Shown here one piece after another: positions 8,692 to 21,322 of a stretch of DNA of 41,925 nt (positions are counted from its first letter, which is position 1; the number at the start of each line of letters is the position of its first letter). This stretch comes from a virus. Location of the stretch: IMG/VR virus record IMGVR_UViG_3300045996_003277, positions 1 to 41,925 of that record; one strand, given 5' to 3'. Made by a program: the position numbers and the translations under genes. The notes under the pieces are model-generated. The model had not been told where the DNA came from. It saw nothing but the letters and a program-made list of their open reading frames with translations, and searched no databases.

Positions 8692-9267
8692 CTATAGTCC
8701 GCGAACGTCCCCCAGGGCGTATTGTAACAGCGCCAACATCGTTGGCTCCTGTCCTCTCGCGCGGAGCGAAGCGGCTGCCTCGAGGATGCGCCGGGCGGCG
8801 GACGTGGGCATGTCCTGGACCACCCCCTCCAGGTTTGCGAGCTGCTTCATCAGATTGAACGTCTGCAGGACGGAGTCGCGGTTCGGATCAAACGCGGCCG
8901 AGAAGCTCTTGTCCAGCGCCCGCATTCGCTCCTCATGGTCCTGGTCGTGCGACTTATCCGGCTCGCGGGCCACCGGCTGAACCGCCTCTGCCTCCTCTAG
9001 TTCCTGCGCTTCAAGTGGGCGGACTTGCGCGCGCTGCATGAGCAGGTGCCAGATCCTCTTCTTTTCGTCTTCTGTCAGGCTCAAAAGCGTAATGATCTGG
9101 GAGACCTTGTCGTTCGTGGGGCGCGCGCCCTCTCGCTCCCACGCGAGAACCGTCGTGTACGACGCCCCCAGAAGCTTGGCGAAGCGGTGCCTGGAGAGGC
9201 CGCGCGCCGTGTACAGCTTGCGGATGTACTCCCCCACTACGTTGAGGTCCTCGTTCGCGTTGGTCAC
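8692..9267 (-). CDS. CI-like XRE-family repressor
   Basis: The 191-residue protein has an N-terminal XRE HTH at about residues 10-60. The HTH contains GLSRHRFAKLLGASYTTVLA with recognition-helix-like YTTVLAWEREG. An acidic linker and a helical C-terminus follow (SAAFDPNRDSVLQTFNLMKQ). There is no S24 peptidase motif, so RecA-driven self-cleavage is not expected. I chose GTG 9267 because GAGGTG stands six bases upstream. ATG 9303 would add 12 residues (MATACGACEVWP) and lie only about four bases from the predicted transcript start. The gene is divergent from the Cro-like gene across a palindromic operator, the standard arrangement of a lysogeny repressor. Confidence 0.75.
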   Translation of the reverse strand: MTNANEDLNVVGEYIRKLYTARGLSRHRFAKLLGASYTTVLAWEREGARPTNDKVSQIITLLSLTEDEKKRIWHLLMQRAQVRPLEAQELEEAEAVQPVAREPDKSHDQDHEERMRALDKSFSAAFDPNRDSVLQTFNLMKQLANLEGVVQDMPTSAARRILEAAASLRARGQEPTMLALLQYALGDVRGL

Positions 9268-9359
9268 TGGCCACACCTCGCACGCGCCGCAGGCTGTTGC
9301 CATCCGGCGCGGACACTATAAGCGTTGACACTTATAGCTCCGACCGTACAATATAACGC
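9268..9359. promoter_or_regulatory. Immunity switch: divergent promoters and operator
   Basis: Rightward promoter: -35 TTGACA (9325-9330), 16-bp spacer, -10 TACAAT (9347-9352), then seven bases to the GTG of the Cro-like gene. A perfect inverted repeat covers the -35: arms CTATAAG (9316-9322) and CTTATAG (9331-9337) with eight bases between. Leftward, TATAGT (minus strand, within 9320-9313) is a plausible -10 for the repressor with only a weak -35. Occupation of the palindrome would block the rightward promoter. Confidence 0.8.
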
Positions 9360-9602
9360 GTGCGAGTTGGCGAATTTTTGACGAGCCGCGGCATGTCGAT
9401 CCTTGCTCTGTCCAAGGCAACCGGCATCTCCTACACGACCCTCCATCCCCACGTGCGTCACGGGAAGGCCGTCTCGCTGGAGACGGCGAAACGCCTGGAG
9501 GCGTGGTCTGCCGGCGGCATCAAAGCCGCCGAGGTCCTTGGGATCCAGGACCACGCCTCTGCGCCCCAGGACCTTCAGGCCCCCGCCCCGCCCGCCGCCT
9601 GA
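9360..9602 (+). CDS. Cro-like HTH protein, leaderless
   Basis: The 80-residue protein carries an HTH at about residues 11-50, with MSILALSKATGISYTTLHPH and a following VSLETAKRLEAWS helix; a Pro/Ala tail ends the chain. It stands opposite the CI-like gene and opens the rightward early operon, as cro does. The GTG start begins seven bases after the -10 hexamer with no ribosome binding site, so initiation should be leaderless. The first HTH gene of the operon probably represses both early promoters late in the decision. Family-level assignment is firm; the cro role is by position. Confidence 0.75.
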   Translation: MRVGEFLTSRGMSILALSKATGISYTTLHPHVRHGKAVSLETAKRLEAWSAGGIKAAEVLGIQDHASAPQDLQAPAPPAA

Positions 9603-14110: not shown

Positions 14111-14586
14111 GCCGATTCGCCGTCACCGCCCTCACCTTCCTCGTCGCACTGCTCCTCCTCGGCGGGTGCGCCGCCGGGGTCCAGGATGTCGGCCAGCGGG
14201 ATCTGCCGGCTGCGACCGAGCCTGCCGATGCGCTGATCAGGGCCAGCGCTCTGCTCGAGGAGGTCCACGCCACCCTCGACGCCATCCACCGCGACGCTGC
14301 CGCGCGCGCGCGGCTCGAAGCCCCGACCGAGGAGGAGAAGCACAAGGCGATCGACGAGGTCCATCGGCAGCTCCTGCCTGCCTGGAACGCGTACGATCGG
14401 GCCCGGACCCTCTACCTCGCCGCCGCGACCGCCGTCCGCGCCGCGGAGCTGACCAGGCTCGCGGGGCGTGAGCCCGACCCGGGTCGGATCGCCACCGCGC
14501 TCATCGCCCTCATCGACGCCTGCGACGAGCTCGCGCGCGCCGCCGAGGCCGTTGGTGTCCCGGCGCCCGGAAAGGCGGGGTCATGA
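14107..14586 (+). CDS. Lipoprotein of the lysis cassette, spanin-like
   Basis: The 159-residue protein has a clear lipoprotein signal: MSRFAVTALT, a hydrophobic core and lipobox LLGGC with C21 as the acylated residue. The mature part is Ala-rich and helical (ALIRASALLEEVHATLDAI and similar). GTG 14107 is preferred because GGAGG stands seven bases before it and it overlaps the previous stop (GTGA). It precedes a holin-like protein and the lysin, so an outer-membrane spanin or lysis accessory is likely. It is longer than typical Rz1 proteins. Confidence 0.6.
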   Translation: MSRFAVTALTFLVALLLLGGCAAGVQDVGQRDLPAATEPADALIRASALLEEVHATLDAIHRDAAARARLEAPTEEEKHKAIDEVHRQLLPAWNAYDRARTLYLAAATAVRAAELTRLAGREPDPGRIATALIALIDACDELARAAEAVGVPAPGKAGS

Positions 14587-14876
14587 CGACGATCGACTGG
14601 AGCGCGGTCATCCTCGCCGCCCTCGGGCTCGGGACCGCGATCGTTCGCGCCGTGTCCCGCCGGAGAAGCGCCGCGCCAGCGGCGCCGACGACCCCCGCCG
14701 CGCCGGCGAAGCCAGCGCCCATGCCGCCTGCGCCGCCCGGGCGCACCGACGCCGCCATCACCGCCGCCGAGCACGAGAAGGCCCGCCAGGAGGCCGCACG
14801 GCGCGCCCCGGTGGCCGACATGACCAAGCCCGCGCCGTCGAGCGACGACGCCATCGAGTCGAGGGACATGCAATGA
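14583..14876 (+). CDS. Holin-like single-span membrane protein
   Basis: The 97-residue protein has one N-terminal hydrophobic span (WSAVILAALGLGTAIVRAV, residues 6-24) followed by a basic RRR and a long Ala/Pro-rich, then charged, hydrophilic tail. The ATG overlaps the lipoprotein stop and its own stop overlaps the lysin start. A short membrane protein immediately before the lysin is usually the holin, though a span plus long tail also suits an inner-membrane spanin. Assignment rests on position and topology. Confidence 0.5.
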   Translation: MTTIDWSAVILAALGLGTAIVRAVSRRRSAAPAAPTTPAAPAKPAPMPPAPPGRTDAAITAAEHEKARQEAARRAPVADMTKPAPSSDDAIESRDMQ

Positions 14877-16348
14877 CCGCCCGCATCATCTCCGCCGGAT
14901 CGGGCGAGCGCCGCGCGCTCGTCCTGCTCTACTTCGTCCCGCCCATCCGCCGACCCGGCGATCCGCACATCGACGACCAGATCCGGGCCGCGCTGCCCGG
15001 CGCGTGCGTCATCGCGTACAGCGACCAGGACGGCGAACCCATTGCCCTGGCCGATGCGCGTGCGCGCGCAGTGGGCTGGACGGCCGGCCCTCTGGTGCTC
15101 GGTGGCTTCTCCGCCGGGGTCCTCCGCGGCGTCCGGAAGCGGTTGCTGGAGGGGGCCAATCCGGACGCCGTGATCGCGATCGACGGCACGCACGCCGACC
15201 TGCCGCCGGCCGCGTGGCAGCTCGACGTCTGGCGCCCGGTCATCACGGACGCGCGCGCCGGGCGTCGGCTGTTCGTGGCCACCGCGACGCAGCAGCTCTA
15301 CGTCGAGAGCCTGCCCGGGGAGGCGCGGTACATGGCGACCATCACGCTGCTCCGCCGGCTGACCGGCTGGCCGCTTGCGAGCCCCGGGCCGCTGCCGCTC
15401 GGGGAGCACGTCTCCGAGGGAGACTGCCACGTCCACAGCTACGCGAGCGCGAAGATGGACGGCCGCGCCCACAGCGACCAGCAGACCCGCGTGCTCCCCG
15501 AGATGCTCCGGCTGCACCTCGCTCCGTGGCTCGCCCGGGCCGGAGGCGCCGCGCCCGCTCCGGCCGAGGACCGCGTGACGCCCGAGCCGCCGACGCCGGA
15601 GGCGCCCGCGGTGCTGGCCCCGCGCGTGCTGCGCCTCGGCGCGAAGGGCGACGACGTGGGCGACTGGCAGCGGCGCCTGATCGAGCTGGGCTACGACCCT
15701 GGGGCCCCGGACCACGACTTCGGCAGGCTGACGGATGCGGCCACGCGGGAGTTCCAGCGCGACGCCCGGCTCACCATCGACGGCGTGGTGGGGCCGAGGA
15801 CGCGCGCCGCCGCCGAGTCCGCGGCCCCGACGACGATCCCGCCGTCTCCCCCAGCCGGCCTCCCCGCTGCCTTCCTCGCGCGCGCCCGCCGCGACCTCGC
15901 GGCCGGCGTCCGCGAGACCGCGCCGAACGACGGCCCCCGCATCCGCGAGATGCTCGCCGCCGTCGGCGTGGCGGACCCAGCGAACTGGTGCGCTGCCGCC
16001 GTCACCACGTGGCTGCTCGATGCCGCCTGGGAGCTCGGTGTCGAGCCGCCGATCCGCGGGAGCGCCGGGGCAAAGGCCCTGATGGCGCAGTTCCAGCGGG
16101 CCGGCCGATGGGTCTCCGCCGATGAACTCCGGCGCGATCCGAGCCTGCTCCAGCCGGGTATGGTCGCCGTCTGGCACCGGGGCGCGCCGGGCGCCTGGAC
16201 CGGGCACGTCGCCGTCGTCGCGAGCGCCACCATCGGGACGCGCTTCGTCAGCATCGACGGCAACGGCGGGCCCGCGGGAGATCGCGTGGCGGATACACGA
16301 CGCGAGCTGAACGACCGGCTCTTCCTCGGCGTCGGGCGGGTGGGCTGA
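14873..16348 (+). CDS. Three-domain lysin: GxSxG hydrolase, PG-binding, CHAP
   Basis: The 491-residue protein opens with an alpha/beta-hydrolase-like domain (about 1-220): GFSAG at 78-82 with nucleophile S80, an AIDGTHAD segment and late histidines in DCHVHSY and GRAHSD. Next comes a PG_binding_1 domain (about 251-316: LRLGAKGDDVGDWQRRL, then VGPRTRAAAE). The last is a CHAP-like domain (about 335-491) with C373 in NWCAAAVTTW, H445 in GHVAVV and N464 in IDGNGG. CHAP and PG-binding make a peptidoglycan-cleaving endolysin. The hydrolase domain suggests an added ester-cleaving step, perhaps on an outer-envelope lipid or O-acetyl group. No signal peptide is seen, so export would depend on the holin. 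Confidence 0.75.
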   Translation: MTARIISAGSGERRALVLLYFVPPIRRPGDPHIDDQIRAALPGACVIAYSDQDGEPIALADARARAVGWTAGPLVLGGFSAGVLRGVRKRLLEGANPDAVIAIDGTHADLPPAAWQLDVWRPVITDARAGRRLFVATATQQLYVESLPGEARYMATITLLRRLTGWPLASPGPLPLGEHVSEGDCHVHSYASAKMDGRAHSDQQTRVLPEMLRLHLAPWLARAGGAAPAPAEDRVTPEPPTPEAPAVLAPRVLRLGAKGDDVGDWQRRLIELGYDPGAPDHDFGRLTDAATREFQRDARLTIDGVVGPRTRAAAESAAPTTIPPSPPAGLPAAFLARARRDLAAGVRETAPNDGPRIREMLAAVGVADPANWCAAAVTTWLLDAAWELGVEPPIRGSAGAKALMAQFQRAGRWVSADELRRDPSLLQPGMVAVWHRGAPGAWTGHVAVVASATIGTRFVSIDGNGGPAGDRVADTRRELNDRLFLGVGRVG

Positions 16349-16605: not shown

Positions 16606-16860
16606 ATGGCTGTGAGATCTGACACGAAATGGGAGCCTGAAGAGTATCACAAGGACCCGATGGTGAACGCCGTCCTGAATGTGGCGCATGAGCTGTGCCG
16701 ACTGGCAGACGCGACGAACGGGCTCCTCTACGGGCTCAAGTACGGGAAGCAGGAGGGCATGAGCATCGCCGAGGCGGTCGAAGTGGGCTGCAAGGCGGCA
16801 GGCGAGAGCATCGCGACGGCGATCCAGCAGGCCGCCGAGACGCTGAGCGACTCCGAGTAG
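16606..16860 (+). CDS. Small unknown protein
   Basis: The 84-residue product begins at ATG 16606, eight bases after AGGAG; earlier in-frame starts lack a site. It has a charged N-terminus (MAVRSDTKWEPEEYHKD) and two helices with regularly placed Ala and Leu (VNAVLNVAHELCRLADATN and later EAVEVGCKAAGESIATAIQQ). No signal or membrane span. No family is recognised. Confidence 0.5.
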   Translation: MAVRSDTKWEPEEYHKDPMVNAVLNVAHELCRLADATNGLLYGLKYGKQEGMSIAEAVEVGCKAAGESIATAIQQAAETLSDSE

Positions 16861-16924
16861 ACCGCGCTTCCGGCTTCTCCGGACTCAGCCGGGCAGGTAG
16901 GATCGTCCCCGCCGGGAGGACGTC

Positions 16925-17716
16925 ATGGAGTTGCTCGTGCTGCTGATCGTGCTGCTCGCGGGGCCATGCTCGTCCGACGACGACGAGCCGCTCTTCTGCG
17001 ATGGCGATGCGTGCGCCGAGATCGCAGGTGCTGGAGGGGCCGGCGGAGCCGGGGGTGCGGGAGGTGCCGGGGCGAGCACCACGGCGTCCAGCTCGGCCTC
17101 GTCCAGCTCCTCGTCGGAGAGCACGCCGGGCGCGAGCTCGTCAACGTCGGCCGGCGCCGGAGGTGGCGAGGGCGGGGCTGGAGGCAGCAGCGCGGAGGGT
17201 GGTGGAGGCCCGGCCTCGACGACCTCGACGACCACGACCACGACGAGCGCGACCGGCGGCCCCGTGGGGCCCGCATGCGCGAGCGACGCCCAGTGCAGCT
17301 ACCAGACCGCCGGGTGCTACCCGCCACGCTGCCACGAGTGCCTGGAGGGGCGCTGCGTCGATGGTCACTGCGAGCTGCAGGAGGTCAACGACGACGTGTG
17401 GGGATGCATCGTCACCGACGCGGACTCCCCCCGGCACGGCAAGGAGGGGAGGTGCGGCAGCGGGACATGCCTCGACTTCACACCCGTCCGCTGCCAGACG
17501 GACGAAGGGACGTACCAGGGTTGCGACGGGACCGAGCACCAGTCGAGCGAGTATCTCCAGATCAGGTTCGATTCGGGGCCGCATCAGGTGGACAGGGAGT
17601 GCATCGGTTCCCCAATCGAGGTGGAGTACTGCCCGCCCGGTACCTTCTGCTTGGTGGACTTCGCCTACGATCCTGTGGCCGGGGTGCAGCGCACGATCGG
17701 CGGAAGGTGCCTCTGA
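16925..17716 (+). CDS. Secreted Cys-rich cargo protein, lipoprotein-like
   Basis: The 263-residue product begins with a hydrophobic leader (MELLVLLIVLLAGPC) that may be lipidated at C15, although the lipobox has Pro at -1 and the leader lacks a positive start. A long Gly-Ala, then Ser/Thr-rich, linker follows (about 35-110). The C-terminal half has about a dozen Cys (SDAQCSYQTAGCYPPRCHEC, CVDGHC, GTCLDF and others) and probably folds as a disulphide-rich extracellular domain. GGGAGG five bases before the ATG supports the start. The linker style is typical of surface proteins of Polyangiales, so this looks like a host-derived conversion gene carried among phage genes. Confidence 0.65.
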   Translation: MELLVLLIVLLAGPCSSDDDEPLFCDGDACAEIAGAGGAGGAGGAGGAGASTTASSSASSSSSSESTPGASSSTSAGAGGGEGGAGGSSAEGGGGPASTTSTTTTTTSATGGPVGPACASDAQCSYQTAGCYPPRCHECLEGRCVDGHCELQEVNDDVWGCIVTDADSPRHGKEGRCGSGTCLDFTPVRCQTDEGTYQGCDGTEHQSSEYLQIRFDSGPHQVDRECIGSPIEVEYCPPGTFCLVDFAYDPVAGVQRTIGGRCL

Positions 17717-17951
17717 GGTCGGGCAGGTGTAGGTGCCACGGACCGGCGTTCCAACAGTGTTGGAGGGGGGTCGAAGCGGCAGGGCCGGCTGCGTGTGATT
17801 GGACCTGGATCTGAGCGGGATTTTTTATTCCTGGCGGCACTGGGCCACGCTGACCAGATCGCAGATCGGAGGTCGCGATCACCGGTGTTCGGTGCGGGTA
17901 TGCCCTGCCGAATATTCCTCCACGAATGCCGGCGGACGCTACAGTTCAACC
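17717..17951. promoter_or_regulatory. 235-base control region before the small HTH gene
   Basis: No gene is supported here. A 15-base palindrome TCCAACAGTGTTGGA lies at 17750-17764, 34 bases past the cargo gene stop. A T6 run (GGATTTTTTATTCC, about 17819-17832) follows. It could close a weak terminator or form part of a promoter. The right end holds the GAATATTC promoter described separately. Confidence 0.4.
17910..17951 (+). promoter_or_regulatory. GAATATTC-type promoter of the HTH gene
   Basis: GAATATTC at 17910-17917, then TCCA two bases on (17919-17922), a -10-like TACAGT (17940-17945) and six bases to the GTG at 17952. The distance from the first base of the box to the GTG is 42, the same as at terS (18966 to 19008). 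There is no consensus -35, so an activator or alternative factor probably recognises the palindromic box. Confidence 0.6.
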
Positions 17952-18161
17952 GTGCGCAGCAAAGGCATGGTGGCGTTGCGGAACGCGGGGCGGCAGGAGG
18001 ACATCGCGCGGAAGCTCGGTGTCTCACAGGGGACGGTGAGCAAGTGGGGCTCCGGCACCAAGCCGCTGTACGAGAACCGCATCCTCATGCGGGACCGGCT
18101 CAAGATCCCGGTGCAGGCCTGGGACGAGCCGGCGGAGACCTCGCCGCAGGTGGCAGCTTAG
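17952..18161 (+). CDS. Small HTH regulator, candidate late activator
   Basis: The 69-residue protein is nearly all HTH: MVALRNAGRQEDIARKLGVS then QGTVSKWGSGTKPLYENRIL. The fold is XRE/Cro-like with recognition helix QGTVSKWGS. I start it at GTG 17952 because this lies six bases after a -10-like hexamer, giving a leaderless message; longer versions in the frame lack any start signal. The same promoter box occurs before terS, so the protein may control both its own gene and the late operon. The activator role is inferred from the shared site. Confidence 0.6.
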   Translation: MRSKGMVALRNAGRQEDIARKLGVSQGTVSKWGSGTKPLYENRILMRDRLKIPVQAWDEPAETSPQVAA

Positions 18162-18163
18162 CA

Positions 18164-18403
18164 ATGGAGAGCTCTGTACTCCTGATGTCCGCCGCACATC
18201 TGGCGGAGAGGGCCGTGCGCTGTGCTGTTCGCGGCGCGAGTGAACTGCCGGTCCGTGCCGCGCTGCGCCGGTTCCGCGAGGCGATGGCCAGGGCCGAGAT
18301 CGGCGTCTGGCCGGTTACGGTGCGTCTCGACCAGCCAGCGCAGGAGCGCCAGGAGCCCCGCATCAAGGCGGGGTATCTCGTCGTCGAGCGCCCTGAGCCG
18401 TGA
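18164..18403 (+). CDS. Unknown 79-residue protein
   Basis: Starts at ATG 18164, just after the HTH gene. The product is Arg/Ala-rich and helical at first (AAHLAERAVRCAVRGASELP), then has a short beta-like end (IGVWPVTVRLDQ and IKAGYLVVERPEP). No family is recognised. The stop overlaps the GTG of the next gene (GTGA), indicating coupling. Confidence 0.5.
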   Translation: MESSVLLMSAAHLAERAVRCAVRGASELPVRAALRRFREAMARAEIGVWPVTVRLDQPAQERQEPRIKAGYLVVERPEP

Positions 18404-18930
18404 CCAGCGTCTCGGACCTCTACACGCCCGCGGACGCGGCGCAGGTACGTTGGGCTCGCGAGGTGGACCGGGCGCTGCGGGCGCGCGAGGGCATGGCCGT
18501 CCGTGCGGCGTGTCTCCGGCTCGCGCGGCAGCTCCGCGGTGAGACGATCCTCGGCGCCGATGGGCGGCCGTACCTGGTCCGCTACCAGCTGGCCGAGTAC
18601 CCCCGCGGCGGGCCGCGCGTGTACCTCCACCACTTCCAGCAAAGCGACCAGGCCGAGAAGCTGCACAACCACCCCTGGGACCGCTCCGTGAGCCTCATCC
18701 TCGCCGGCGGGTACCGCGAGCACCGGCACCGCGCGGCCTCTCGCCTGCTCCGGCCCGGCGACACGAACGAGATCCGCGCCTCGGACTTCCACCGCATCGA
18801 GCTCGTCGAGGCGGACGCCTGGACCGTGTTCCGCACCGGCCGCTACGTGGGGACCTGGGAGTTCCTCGACGTGAAGACCGGCCGCCGGATCCCATGGAGG
18901 GAGTTCGCAAGTCGCCGAGAACACGCGTGA
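18400..18930 (+). CDS. Cupin-like phage protein
   Basis: The 176-residue protein belongs to a cupin-like group common in phages. It has YLHHFQQSDQAEKLHNHPWD, then SLILAGGYREHRHR, a turn LLRPGDTNEIRASDFHRIEL and an end WTVFRTGRYVGTWEFLDVKT. The His residues in HNHPW and FHRI are placed to bind a metal. Cupin-type phage proteins may modify small molecules or be structural; the substrate is unknown. The GTG start is coupled to the preceding stop. It is the last gene before the late promoter. Confidence 0.65.
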   Translation: MTSVSDLYTPADAAQVRWAREVDRALRAREGMAVRAACLRLARQLRGETILGADGRPYLVRYQLAEYPRGGPRVYLHHFQQSDQAEKLHNHPWDRSVSLILAGGYREHRHRAASRLLRPGDTNEIRASDFHRIELVEADAWTVFRTGRYVGTWEFLDVKTGRRIPWREFASRREHA

Positions 18931-19007
18931 TATTCGGTCTCGAATAATCGACCCCTCCGCGGGGTGAATATTCGTCCAAGCATACGTCGCCGCCTCACGA
19001 TTGAGGC
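18930..19007 (+). promoter_or_regulatory. Late promoter region upstream of terminase genes
   Basis: Contains an inverted repeat ATATTCG-GTCT-CGAATAAT (18930-18948), a short GC hairpin ACCCC/GGGGT (18951-18965) that may end the upstream message, and then GAATATTC (18966-18973) with TCCA two bases on. A -10-like CACGAT (18996-19001) stands six bases before the GTG at 19008. Box, spacing and lack of a leader match the promoter at 17910. The half-site ATATTCG recurs in the inverted repeat, suggesting cooperative binding by one regulator. Confidence 0.6.
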
Positions 19008-19631
19008 GTGTCGTGTTGCCCGGTCGGCAAGCACAAGCAGCGCTCGGAGATCGAGACGCTCATCGCGTCGTGCGATGACGACCTCGCCGTTGCTGACCGC
19101 TTCCGGGGGGTGACTCGCGCGGCGGTGAAGAAGCACCGCGCGCACATGCCCACCGCGGAGCCAGCGCCGGCGCCGCCGCCCGCACCGGCCGCGGCCAGCT
19201 CCGCGACGGCGCGCGTGGTTCCGATCCGCGGCAAGCGCGCCGCTGCTCCCGAACCGGAGTTCGACGAGGAGGCTCCGGCATCGGAGCCCGCGCCGAAGCG
19301 CGCCGGGCGCGGCATCACCGACGAGGACCTGGAGACCGCGTACCGCCGGGCCGTGCGGTTGCTCGAGGCGCTGGAGAGGCTCGTCGAGAAGCTCGAGGGC
19401 GATGCGCTCGCGAGCCACCGCGATCTGCTCGGCGCCTACAAGGAGCTCCGCGAGAGCATCACCCTGATGGCGCGTCTGACCCGCGAGCTCGGCCCCGAGC
19501 GCGAGGTCGTCATCGTCCAGAGCCCGCAGTGGAAGAAGGTCGAGGCGGCCCTGTTCCAGGCGCTGCGTGCCTTCCCGGAGGCCGCGAAGGCGGCGGGCAA
19601 GGCGCTCCAGGCGCTCGAGGAGGCCGCTTGA
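19008..19631 (+). CDS. terS: Terminase small subunit (probable)
   Basis: The 207-residue protein precedes the large subunit and overlaps its start. The N-terminus (CCPVGKHKQRSEIETLIASC then RFRGVTRAAVKKHRAHMP) matches the Cys/His plus HTH start of small terminase subunits in Mu-like and related phages. These bind the packaging site and hand DNA to TerL. A Pro/Ala-rich linker (about 48-90) joins a helical oligomerisation region (AYRRAVRLLEALERLVEKLE). The GTG start is leaderless after the late promoter. Identity rests on the motif and on position. Confidence 0.7.
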   Translation: MSCCPVGKHKQRSEIETLIASCDDDLAVADRFRGVTRAAVKKHRAHMPTAEPAPAPPPAPAAASSATARVVPIRGKRAAAPEPEFDEEAPASEPAPKRAGRGITDEDLETAYRRAVRLLEALERLVEKLEGDALASHRDLLGAYKELRESITLMARLTRELGPEREVVIVQSPQWKKVEAALFQALRAFPEAAKAAGKALQALEEAA

Positions 19632-21322
19632 ACGGCGGGCTCGGGCGCGTCGAGAAGGCGACGAAGCACGCCACGATGGCGGGCGCGCTGGCCGCCGGGC
19701 TGCTCGCAATTGCGCATGCCGCGACCGTGCCCTCGTGGCCGTCGGAGAAGTACCGCAACGACCCGGTCGCATTCTTCCGGGAGGTCCTCGGGATCGAGCC
19801 GTGGGACCGACAGCTCGAGGTCATTGAGGCGATCCGCGACCACGACCGCGTGAGCGTGCGCGCCGGCCAGAAGGTCAGCAAGACGAACACGGTCGTCGGC
19901 GCAGCGCTCTGGTTCTACTGCTCCTACGAGCCGGCCCTCGTGCAGATGACCTCCGTCACCGCGCGGCAGGTGAACACCATCCTGTGGCGCGAGCTCAAGT
20001 TCGAGGTCGCGCGCTCCGGGCGCTGCGCCGAGTGCCGCGCGCGGGACTTCACCGGGTTCAGCCGATGCGAGAGGTGCTCACCGGCGCCGCTGATCGACGG
20101 TGACCTCTCCGAGGTCCCGGCGACCGGTCTGCGTACCGCGGGCGAGCGCCGCAAGATCTCCGGCTTCACCGCGAAGGAAGCGGAGGCCGTACAGGGCGTC
20201 TCCGGCAACGTCCTCTGGATCATCGACGAGGCCAGCGGCGTTCCCGAGCCCATCTTCGAAGCGATCGAGGGCAACTGCGCCGGTGGGGGCAAGATCCTCC
20301 TGACGGGCAACCCGACGAAGATCGAGGGGACGTTCTTCCGGTCCCACAACGAGGGAAAGGAAGCCTGGCACTGCATCCACATCCCGAGCACCGACAGCCC
20401 GAACGTGCGTGAGGGGCGGACGGTGATCCCCGGGCTCGCGACGAGGCACTGGGTCGAGCTTCAGGCATCGAACTACGGCGAGGATTCGGCCTGGTACTAC
20501 GCTCGTGTCAAAGGCGAATTCCCGATCGCGGACTCGACGAAGGTCGTCCCGCTGTACCTCATCAACGAGGCTCACGAGCGCTGGGAGGACTTCCTCTACC
20601 AGCACCGCGAGCTCGGCAAGGAGTACGAGGGGCGGCTCCAAGTCGGAGTCGATCCCGCAAGCACCGGCGACGACGAGTCGATCTGCGTCCTTCGCCGCGG
20701 GGACATGGTGCTCGGTGTCCCCCGCGCCTGGCGGGGGCTCGACGCGGACCGCGTCGCTGCCGAGGTGATGCAGGTCATCCGCGCTGAGCTCGCGGAGCGT
20801 GCCGCGCGTCGCGGGCGCCCGGAGGCGCAGAAGCCGCTCCTCAAGTTCGACAAGTGCGGGACCGTGGGCGCCGATTTCTACGCGGCGATCCGCGAGTACA
20901 AGGACGAGATCGATATCCTGCCGGTCGACGCCTCGCAGCCGTCGTCCCGAAAGGGCGAGTACAAGCACCTCCGCGACGAACTGTGGTTCGGAGTCGCCGC
21001 GTGGTTGCGGGAGGGCGGCGCGATCCCGGAGGACAAGAAGCTCGACGTCGAGCTCATGACACCGAGCTACGAGTTCGACGATCGACAGCGGCGAGACGTC
21101 GAAGCCAAGGACGACATCAAGAAGAAGATCCGCCGCTCGCCGGACCGCGCGGACGCCCTCGCGCTCGCGGTCTACGAGCCAGCGATGGTGCGCGCGGAGG
21201 ACTACCTGAATGGGCCCGCCGCGCCGCCCAGGGACGGCACGCAACGCGCCTTCGACCCGTACGCCGCGAGCCGGCAGATGAACCCGTACGCCGCGAGCCG
21301 AGCCTTCGGGAGGCGCTCATGA
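19628..21322 (+). CDS. terL: Terminase large subunit
   Basis: The 564-residue packaging motor has an ATPase domain with a Walker A-like RAGQKVSKT (about 78-86) and Walker B VLWIIDEAS (about 195-203, D200/E201). The RNase H-like nuclease domain contains GVDPASTGDDES and later FDKCGTVGADF and RADALALAV acidic positions. It cuts concatemeric DNA and pumps it into proheads. I use TTG 19628: it overlaps the terS stop (TTGA) and has GAGGAGG four bases upstream. Between the Walker motifs sits a Cys4 insertion (C133, C136, C147, C150) that could bind zinc. The C-terminus repeats PYAASR twice. Confidence 0.88.
   Translation: MNGGLGRVEKATKHATMAGALAAGLLAIAHAATVPSWPSEKYRNDPVAFFREVLGIEPWDRQLEVIEAIRDHDRVSVRAGQKVSKTNTVVGAALWFYCSYEPALVQMTSVTARQVNTILWRELKFEVARSGRCAECRARDFTGFSRCERCSPAPLIDGDLSEVPATGLRTAGERRKISGFTAKEAEAVQGVSGNVLWIIDEASGVPEPIFEAIEGNCAGGGKILLTGNPTKIEGTFFRSHNEGKEAWHCIHIPSTDSPNVREGRTVIPGLATRHWVELQASNYGEDSAWYYARVKGEFPIADSTKVVPLYLINEAHERWEDFLYQHRELGKEYEGRLQVGVDPASTGDDESICVLRRGDMVLGVPRAWRGLDADRVAAEVMQVIRAELAERAARRGRPEAQKPLLKFDKCGTVGADFYAAIREYKDEIDILPVDASQPSSRKGEYKHLRDELWFGVAAWLREGGAIPEDKKLDVELMTPSYEFDDRQRRDVEAKDDIKKKIRRSPDRADALALAVYEPAMVRAEDYLNGPAAPPRDGTQRAFDPYAASRQMNPYAASRAFGRRS

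Follow-up and report, generated by a model that had tools for sequence, protein, structure and literature searches.

An arrangement of the design analysed here has been described for the controller (C) protein C.Csp231I, whose leaderless gene is preceded by two dyads, the distal of which activates, whereas the proximal one, positioned over the -35, represses (PMC4824078). A second point of reference is provided by the Rpp proteins of Gram-negative PICIs, in which a free TerS-like domain of the lambda-TerS type can re-aim TerS (PMC6739421). Descriptions of late regulation and of packaging control in myxobacterial phages appear to be scarce, and one search of the literature on late promoters of myxobacterial prophages gave no result.

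The DNA analysed here, referred to as the window, is the whole IMG/VR record IMGVR_UViG_3300045996_003277 (41,925 bases, 70% G+C). Judged from its sequence, the genes are arranged as in a temperate phage with a contractile tail: integrase, repressor, cro, replication O/DnaC-like genes, endolysin, a Cys-containing protein, a helix-turn-helix (HTH) protein, a 79-aa ORF, a cupin, terS and terL, followed by the head and tail genes, a sheath gene among them. Most of the relatives found belong to genomes of the order that includes Sorangium cellulosum, which makes a host from the Polyangiales likely. The features relevant to the following analysis are:

8692-9303, minus strand: repressor (CI) gene.
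14468-16348: endolysin gene, upstream of the HTH gene and the terS boxes.
16925-17716: low-complexity Gly/Ser/Thr-rich, Cys-containing, apparently secreted protein, directly before the candidate cos.
17751..17771, plus strand: CCAACAGTGTTGGAGGGGGG, candidate cos core common with related prophages upstream of terS.
17952..18161, plus strand: XRE-type HTH gene, 69 aa, probably starting at a leaderless GTG; its homologue in related prophages is the N-terminal domain of TerS.
18164..18403, plus strand: ORF of 79 aa of unknown function, behind the HTH gene.
18400..18930, plus strand: cupin/cysteine-dioxygenase-like protein, 176 aa (phrog_4786), between the HTH gene and terS.
19008..19631, plus strand: terS, with a Cys-rich HTH-like N-terminus and a C-terminal domain conserved in related TerS.
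19628..21322, plus strand: terL.

The 16925-17716 protein shares 57% identity with its positional counterpart in a prophage of Sorangium cellulosum (L197, 8681-9457), and different lipoprotein- or protease-like genes occupy this position in other relatives (L187, L188).

An earlier note on this DNA had drawn attention to a box, GAATATTC, located before the HTH gene and again before terS, and had interpreted the two copies as parts of promoters with leaderless GTGs, the HTH protein probably being an autoregulated activator of the late operon and of a new type. The box is indeed found at 17910 and 18966 and nowhere else in the 41,925 bases (0.05 copies expected; two copies in 0 of 100 shuffles), and the distance of 42 bases from box start to GTG is exact in both cases (GTG 17952 and GTG 19008). 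The tetramer TCCA follows each box as claimed, after a gap of one base rather than two. With two instances only, the shared 42-base distance (by our own estimate about 1 in 50-100) is suggestive and not proof. The inverted repeat ATATTCG...CGAAT previously pointed out 36 bases before the second box was likewise recovered, at 18930. Comparison of both boxes, their flanks and this nearby repeat revealed that the boxes are not full sites but single arms of an 18-bp dyad, ATATTC-N6-GAATAT:

17898..17915: O1a, GTATGC-N6-GAATAT, two of 12 arm bases off; centre at -45.5 from the HTH GTG; right arm common with O1b.
17910..17917: first GAATATTC box, with arms shared by O1a and O1b.
17912..17929: O1b, ATATTC-N6-GAATGC, two bases off; centre at -31.5 from the HTH GTG.
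18930..18947: O2, ATATTC-N6-GAATAA, one base off; centre at -69.5 from the terS GTG; fully independent of the boxes described earlier.
18966..18973: second GAATATTC box.
18968..18985: O3, ATATTC-N6-GCATAC, two bases off; centre at -31.5 from the terS GTG.

When computed across the window, dyads with at most two mismatches comprise only these four (0.05 expected), all of which are confined to two gaps, with O1a and O1b overlapping before the HTH gene (14 bp centre to centre) and O2 and O3 lying before terS (38 bp). Since the dyad model had been derived from these very sites, it was put to a held-out test with a matrix built from the arms of O1b (17912) and O3 (18968) only. Under these conditions, O1a (20.5 bits) and O2 (20.3 bits) ranked third and fourth in the genome, the next site reached 13.4, and the top score in 60 simulated genomes was 18.5. 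As O1a shares an arm with O1b, only O2 counts as a truly independent site. On these sequence statistics, the four dyads are a real, phage-specific and operator-like set.

The dyads are probably the binding sites of the 17952 HTH protein, as suggested by the proximity of its gene, which lies directly behind one of the two pairs. Because it is this proximity that points to the 17952 product, another protein, namely a host regulator or the phage CI or Cro, may be envisaged as the binder, which we regard as very unlikely: the dyad in the repressor/cro intergenic region is a different one (CTATAAG), and the host order shows no apparent regulon for the dyad, as it is rare across 184 genomes of the order (with one mismatch, 0-3 per genome in most and at most 12). 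In some of these genomes the count exceeded that of a reversed-pattern control. An operator common to CI/Cro and HTH/terS was ruled out, the PR promoter carrying the different dyad.

The PR region also provides an internal reference for the architecture of starts in this phage:

9316..9362, plus strand: PR/cro, with TTGACA at 9325, TACAAT at 9347 and a leaderless GTG at 9360; the dyad CTATAAG-N8-CTTATAG (9316-9337) lies on the -35.
17940..17945, plus strand: -10-like TACAGT, ending six bases before the HTH GTG, assigned by analogy to PR.

The cro gene begins with TTGACA-16-TACAAT-7-GTG and no Shine-Dalgarno sequence, and this leaderless arrangement behind a normal promoter renders leaderless starts plausible in this phage. 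A Shine-Dalgarno sequence is present before most other genes of the phage, and none at usable spacing precedes the HTH and terS GTGs (before terS, a GAGG is located only one base away). For terS, an in-frame TGA at 19002 leaves GTG 19008 as the only possible start. The leaderless GTG starts previously proposed are therefore probable, given the lack of a usable Shine-Dalgarno and the same layout, with a canonical promoter, at cro. The absence of a -35 consensus was confirmed, as no canonical sigma-70-type promoter was found in 16800-19700. Of the -10-like hexamers previously described as ending six bases before each GTG, the one before the HTH gene (TACAGT, 4/6) can be retained, and the one before terS (CACGAT, 3/6) is indistinguishable from chance. 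A search for known RNA elements gave no Rfam match.

The position of the dyads relative to these putative promoters bears directly on the sign of the regulation. Expressed as promoter positions, the centres at -31.5, -45.5 and -69.5 assume that transcription starts at the GTG. On this assumption, O1b and O3 would cover the -35 and spacer, which is where the PR dyad (centre -33.5, on the -35 and of different sequence) and the right-hand, repressing C-protein operator sit, and the position of the PR dyad is one expected for repression. With proximal dyads that would lie over the -35, as in C.Csp231I and at PR, such a layout gives no preference to pure activation: repression, or activation at first and repression thereafter, is at least equally compatible with it.

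Accordingly, we consider it distinctly unlikely that the HTH protein serves the late operon as its dedicated, autoregulated activator and acts on promoters of a new type. This proposal would account for the missing -35 consensus, for the identical distance of the boxes, and for the lack of any other recognised late regulator among the phage proteins scanned, with its own gene and terS as the only two targets. However, an XRE activator would not usually have its site centred at -31.5, the -10 of terS matches at only three of six positions, and the arrangement is not conserved: the search of relatives for the 42-base arrangement, which had been suggested as a check, did not find it in related prophages. 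Moreover, no box precedes the endolysin gene (14468-16348), which is located upstream, and the boxes are therefore without support as the promoter of all late genes. What stands of the earlier interpretation is that the HTH gene and terS have operators in common, with the HTH gene directly behind one pair; the terms "activator" and "new type" are not supported. In viral contigs, GAATATTCNTCCA followed by GTG showed no preference for 42 bases among the matches listed, none of which encodes relatives of HTH, terS or terL, and these were treated as chance.

The computed relationships of the HTH protein agree with a regulatory function. An XRE fold is predicted (AlphaFold pLDDT 90), the profile match to P22 C2 is among the best (E about 6e-4), and the fold matches comprise DdrO, P22 C2, C.BclI, C.AhdI and C.Esp1396I (none with E <0.001, probabilities near 1); Cro is also among the profile and fold matches. 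The late activator families Q, Ogr and Mu Mor/C gave no profile match for this protein. The gene lies outside the immunity region, 8.6 kb from CI/Cro, and its neighbours are the unknown ORF, the cupin and terS/terL, with no linked restriction-modification genes.

A further relationship leads to the terminase. In related Polyangiales prophages (G121, G173, G071, G183), the N-terminus of TerS is homologous to the HTH protein (about 34-41% identity over the domain), with the G/L/W/IP..AW positions common to both. The TerS C-terminal domain is common to the window and these relatives, and the N-terminus of the window TerS is a different, Cys-containing and HTH-like one. The HTH protein ends at residue 69 and lacks a C-terminal oligomerisation/TerL-contact domain, which is encoded by the 19008 gene. 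In another prophage (L188, 12082-12399), TerS has 106 aa and consists of the C-terminal domain only, without a DNA-binding domain; no stand-alone HTH relative was found in that genome. Stand-alone homologues are located directly behind terL in G001 and G178, without a visible promoter of their own, and an HTH-family tandem pair precedes a replication-type gene in G074. The TerS-fused, behind-terL and replication-side copies indicate that the family serves more than one role. At L182 16993-17417, two tandem genes of the family precede a replication-type gene. No new relatives were found in 379 genomes of the phylum.

This homology to TerS DNA-binding domains raises the main alternative, namely that the HTH protein is a freed small-terminase DNA-binding domain or a partner of TerS, and that the dyads are cosB-like packaging sites to the right of cos, any promoter effect at terS being secondary or absent. 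Among 22 loci, seven (the window plus six relatives) carry the motif AACAGT/GACAGT followed within seven bases by GGGGG on the coding strand ahead of terL, and the motif has no further copy on that strand; in two loci it is found on the opposite strand, and looser forms precede terS in G073, G178 and G183. The form ACAGT-N-GGGGG was noted in L180, L188, L197, L187, L186, L182 and L178, besides the window. In the related Polyangiales prophages, the fused HTH-TerS is the first gene after this candidate cos, and the window HTH gene occupies the same place, about 200 bp after the candidate cos at 17751. In addition, the window TerS keeps the family C-terminal domain with a different N-terminus, and the Rpp proteins set a precedent for a free TerS-like domain that re-aims TerS (PMC6739421). 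Nevertheless, the second dyad pair is separated from the candidate cos by 1.2 kb and immediately precedes a gene, to whose start it keeps the spacing that the first pair has to the HTH gene; the window TerS already carries its own HTH-like N-terminus; no such dyads were recognised near cos in relatives; and the cos itself is a candidate only. We consider this alternative doubtful.

Taken together, we favour, with a probability of about 0.52, a model in which the 17952 product regulates terS and its own gene in the manner of a Cro or C protein, acting via the four dyads. In this model, for which we infer the identity of the binder, the promoters and the sign of the effect, the protein would bind the four 18-bp dyads as a dimer, the overlapping pair before its own gene and the pair 38 bp apart before terS placing both transcription units under its control. 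The putative promoters would lack a -35 consensus and start at leaderless GTGs. Binding at the proximal O1b and O3, over the -35 and spacer, would block RNA polymerase, and the distal O1a and O2 could recruit it. The likeliest outcome would be a Cro/controller-type autoregulation, either by repression or by activation that turns into repression as the protein accumulates, which would time terminase synthesis. Against this model stand the lack of a relative with the same arrangement, the very poor -10 before terS, the homologous domain in relatives being part of the packaging protein TerS, the stand-alone homologues behind terL in G001/G178 without a visible promoter of their own, and the endolysin gene upstream of the boxes. 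A more far-reaching view, which we hold to be rather improbable, is that a TerS DNA-binding domain was split from the packaging protein and is now the operon's switch, or serves as a packaging-specificity factor as well, which would couple terminase synthesis to the recognition of cos.

If the favoured model is true, terminase synthesis would be governed, through a compact, defined operator set, by a small XRE protein with kinship to terminase DNA-binding domains, and TerS DNA-binding domains and transcription regulators would be interchangeable.

Compared with known systems, the proposed role is that of the late activators lambda Q, P2 Ogr and Mu Mor/C and of lambda CII, and CII likewise acts on a site around -35; there is no family match, and the CII profile match is insignificant (E 0.17-0.25). 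With the Rpp proteins, the HTH protein would share the nature of a free TerS-like DNA-binding domain, its action in packaging being putative, but Rpp is a winged HTH with a dimerisation part and has no significant sequence relation (RppC, E 0.11). It resembles the TerS N-terminal domain of Polyangiales prophages in sequence, conserved positions and place relative to the candidate cos, and differs in being a stand-alone 69-aa gene next to a TerS that carries another N-terminus. With P22 C2 and Cro-type repressors, it has in common the XRE fold and a P22 C2-like sequence, and the 18-bp dyad with 6-base arms and N6 has what we take to be the length of the P22 C2 operator; unlike these repressors, it is encoded outside the immunity region of a phage that has its own CI and Cro with a different operator-like dyad. 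Finally, while the relationship to the C proteins (C.Csp231I, C.AhdI, C.Esp1396I) is at the level of the fold, with no restriction system and with other dyad sequence and spacing (14 and 38 bp), the locus shares with them a small XRE-fold protein with a putative second target gene, two dyads upstream of a gene that is probably leaderless, the proximal one of which would lie over the -35, and the existence of a fused regulator-enzyme form, whose counterpart here is HTH-TerS.
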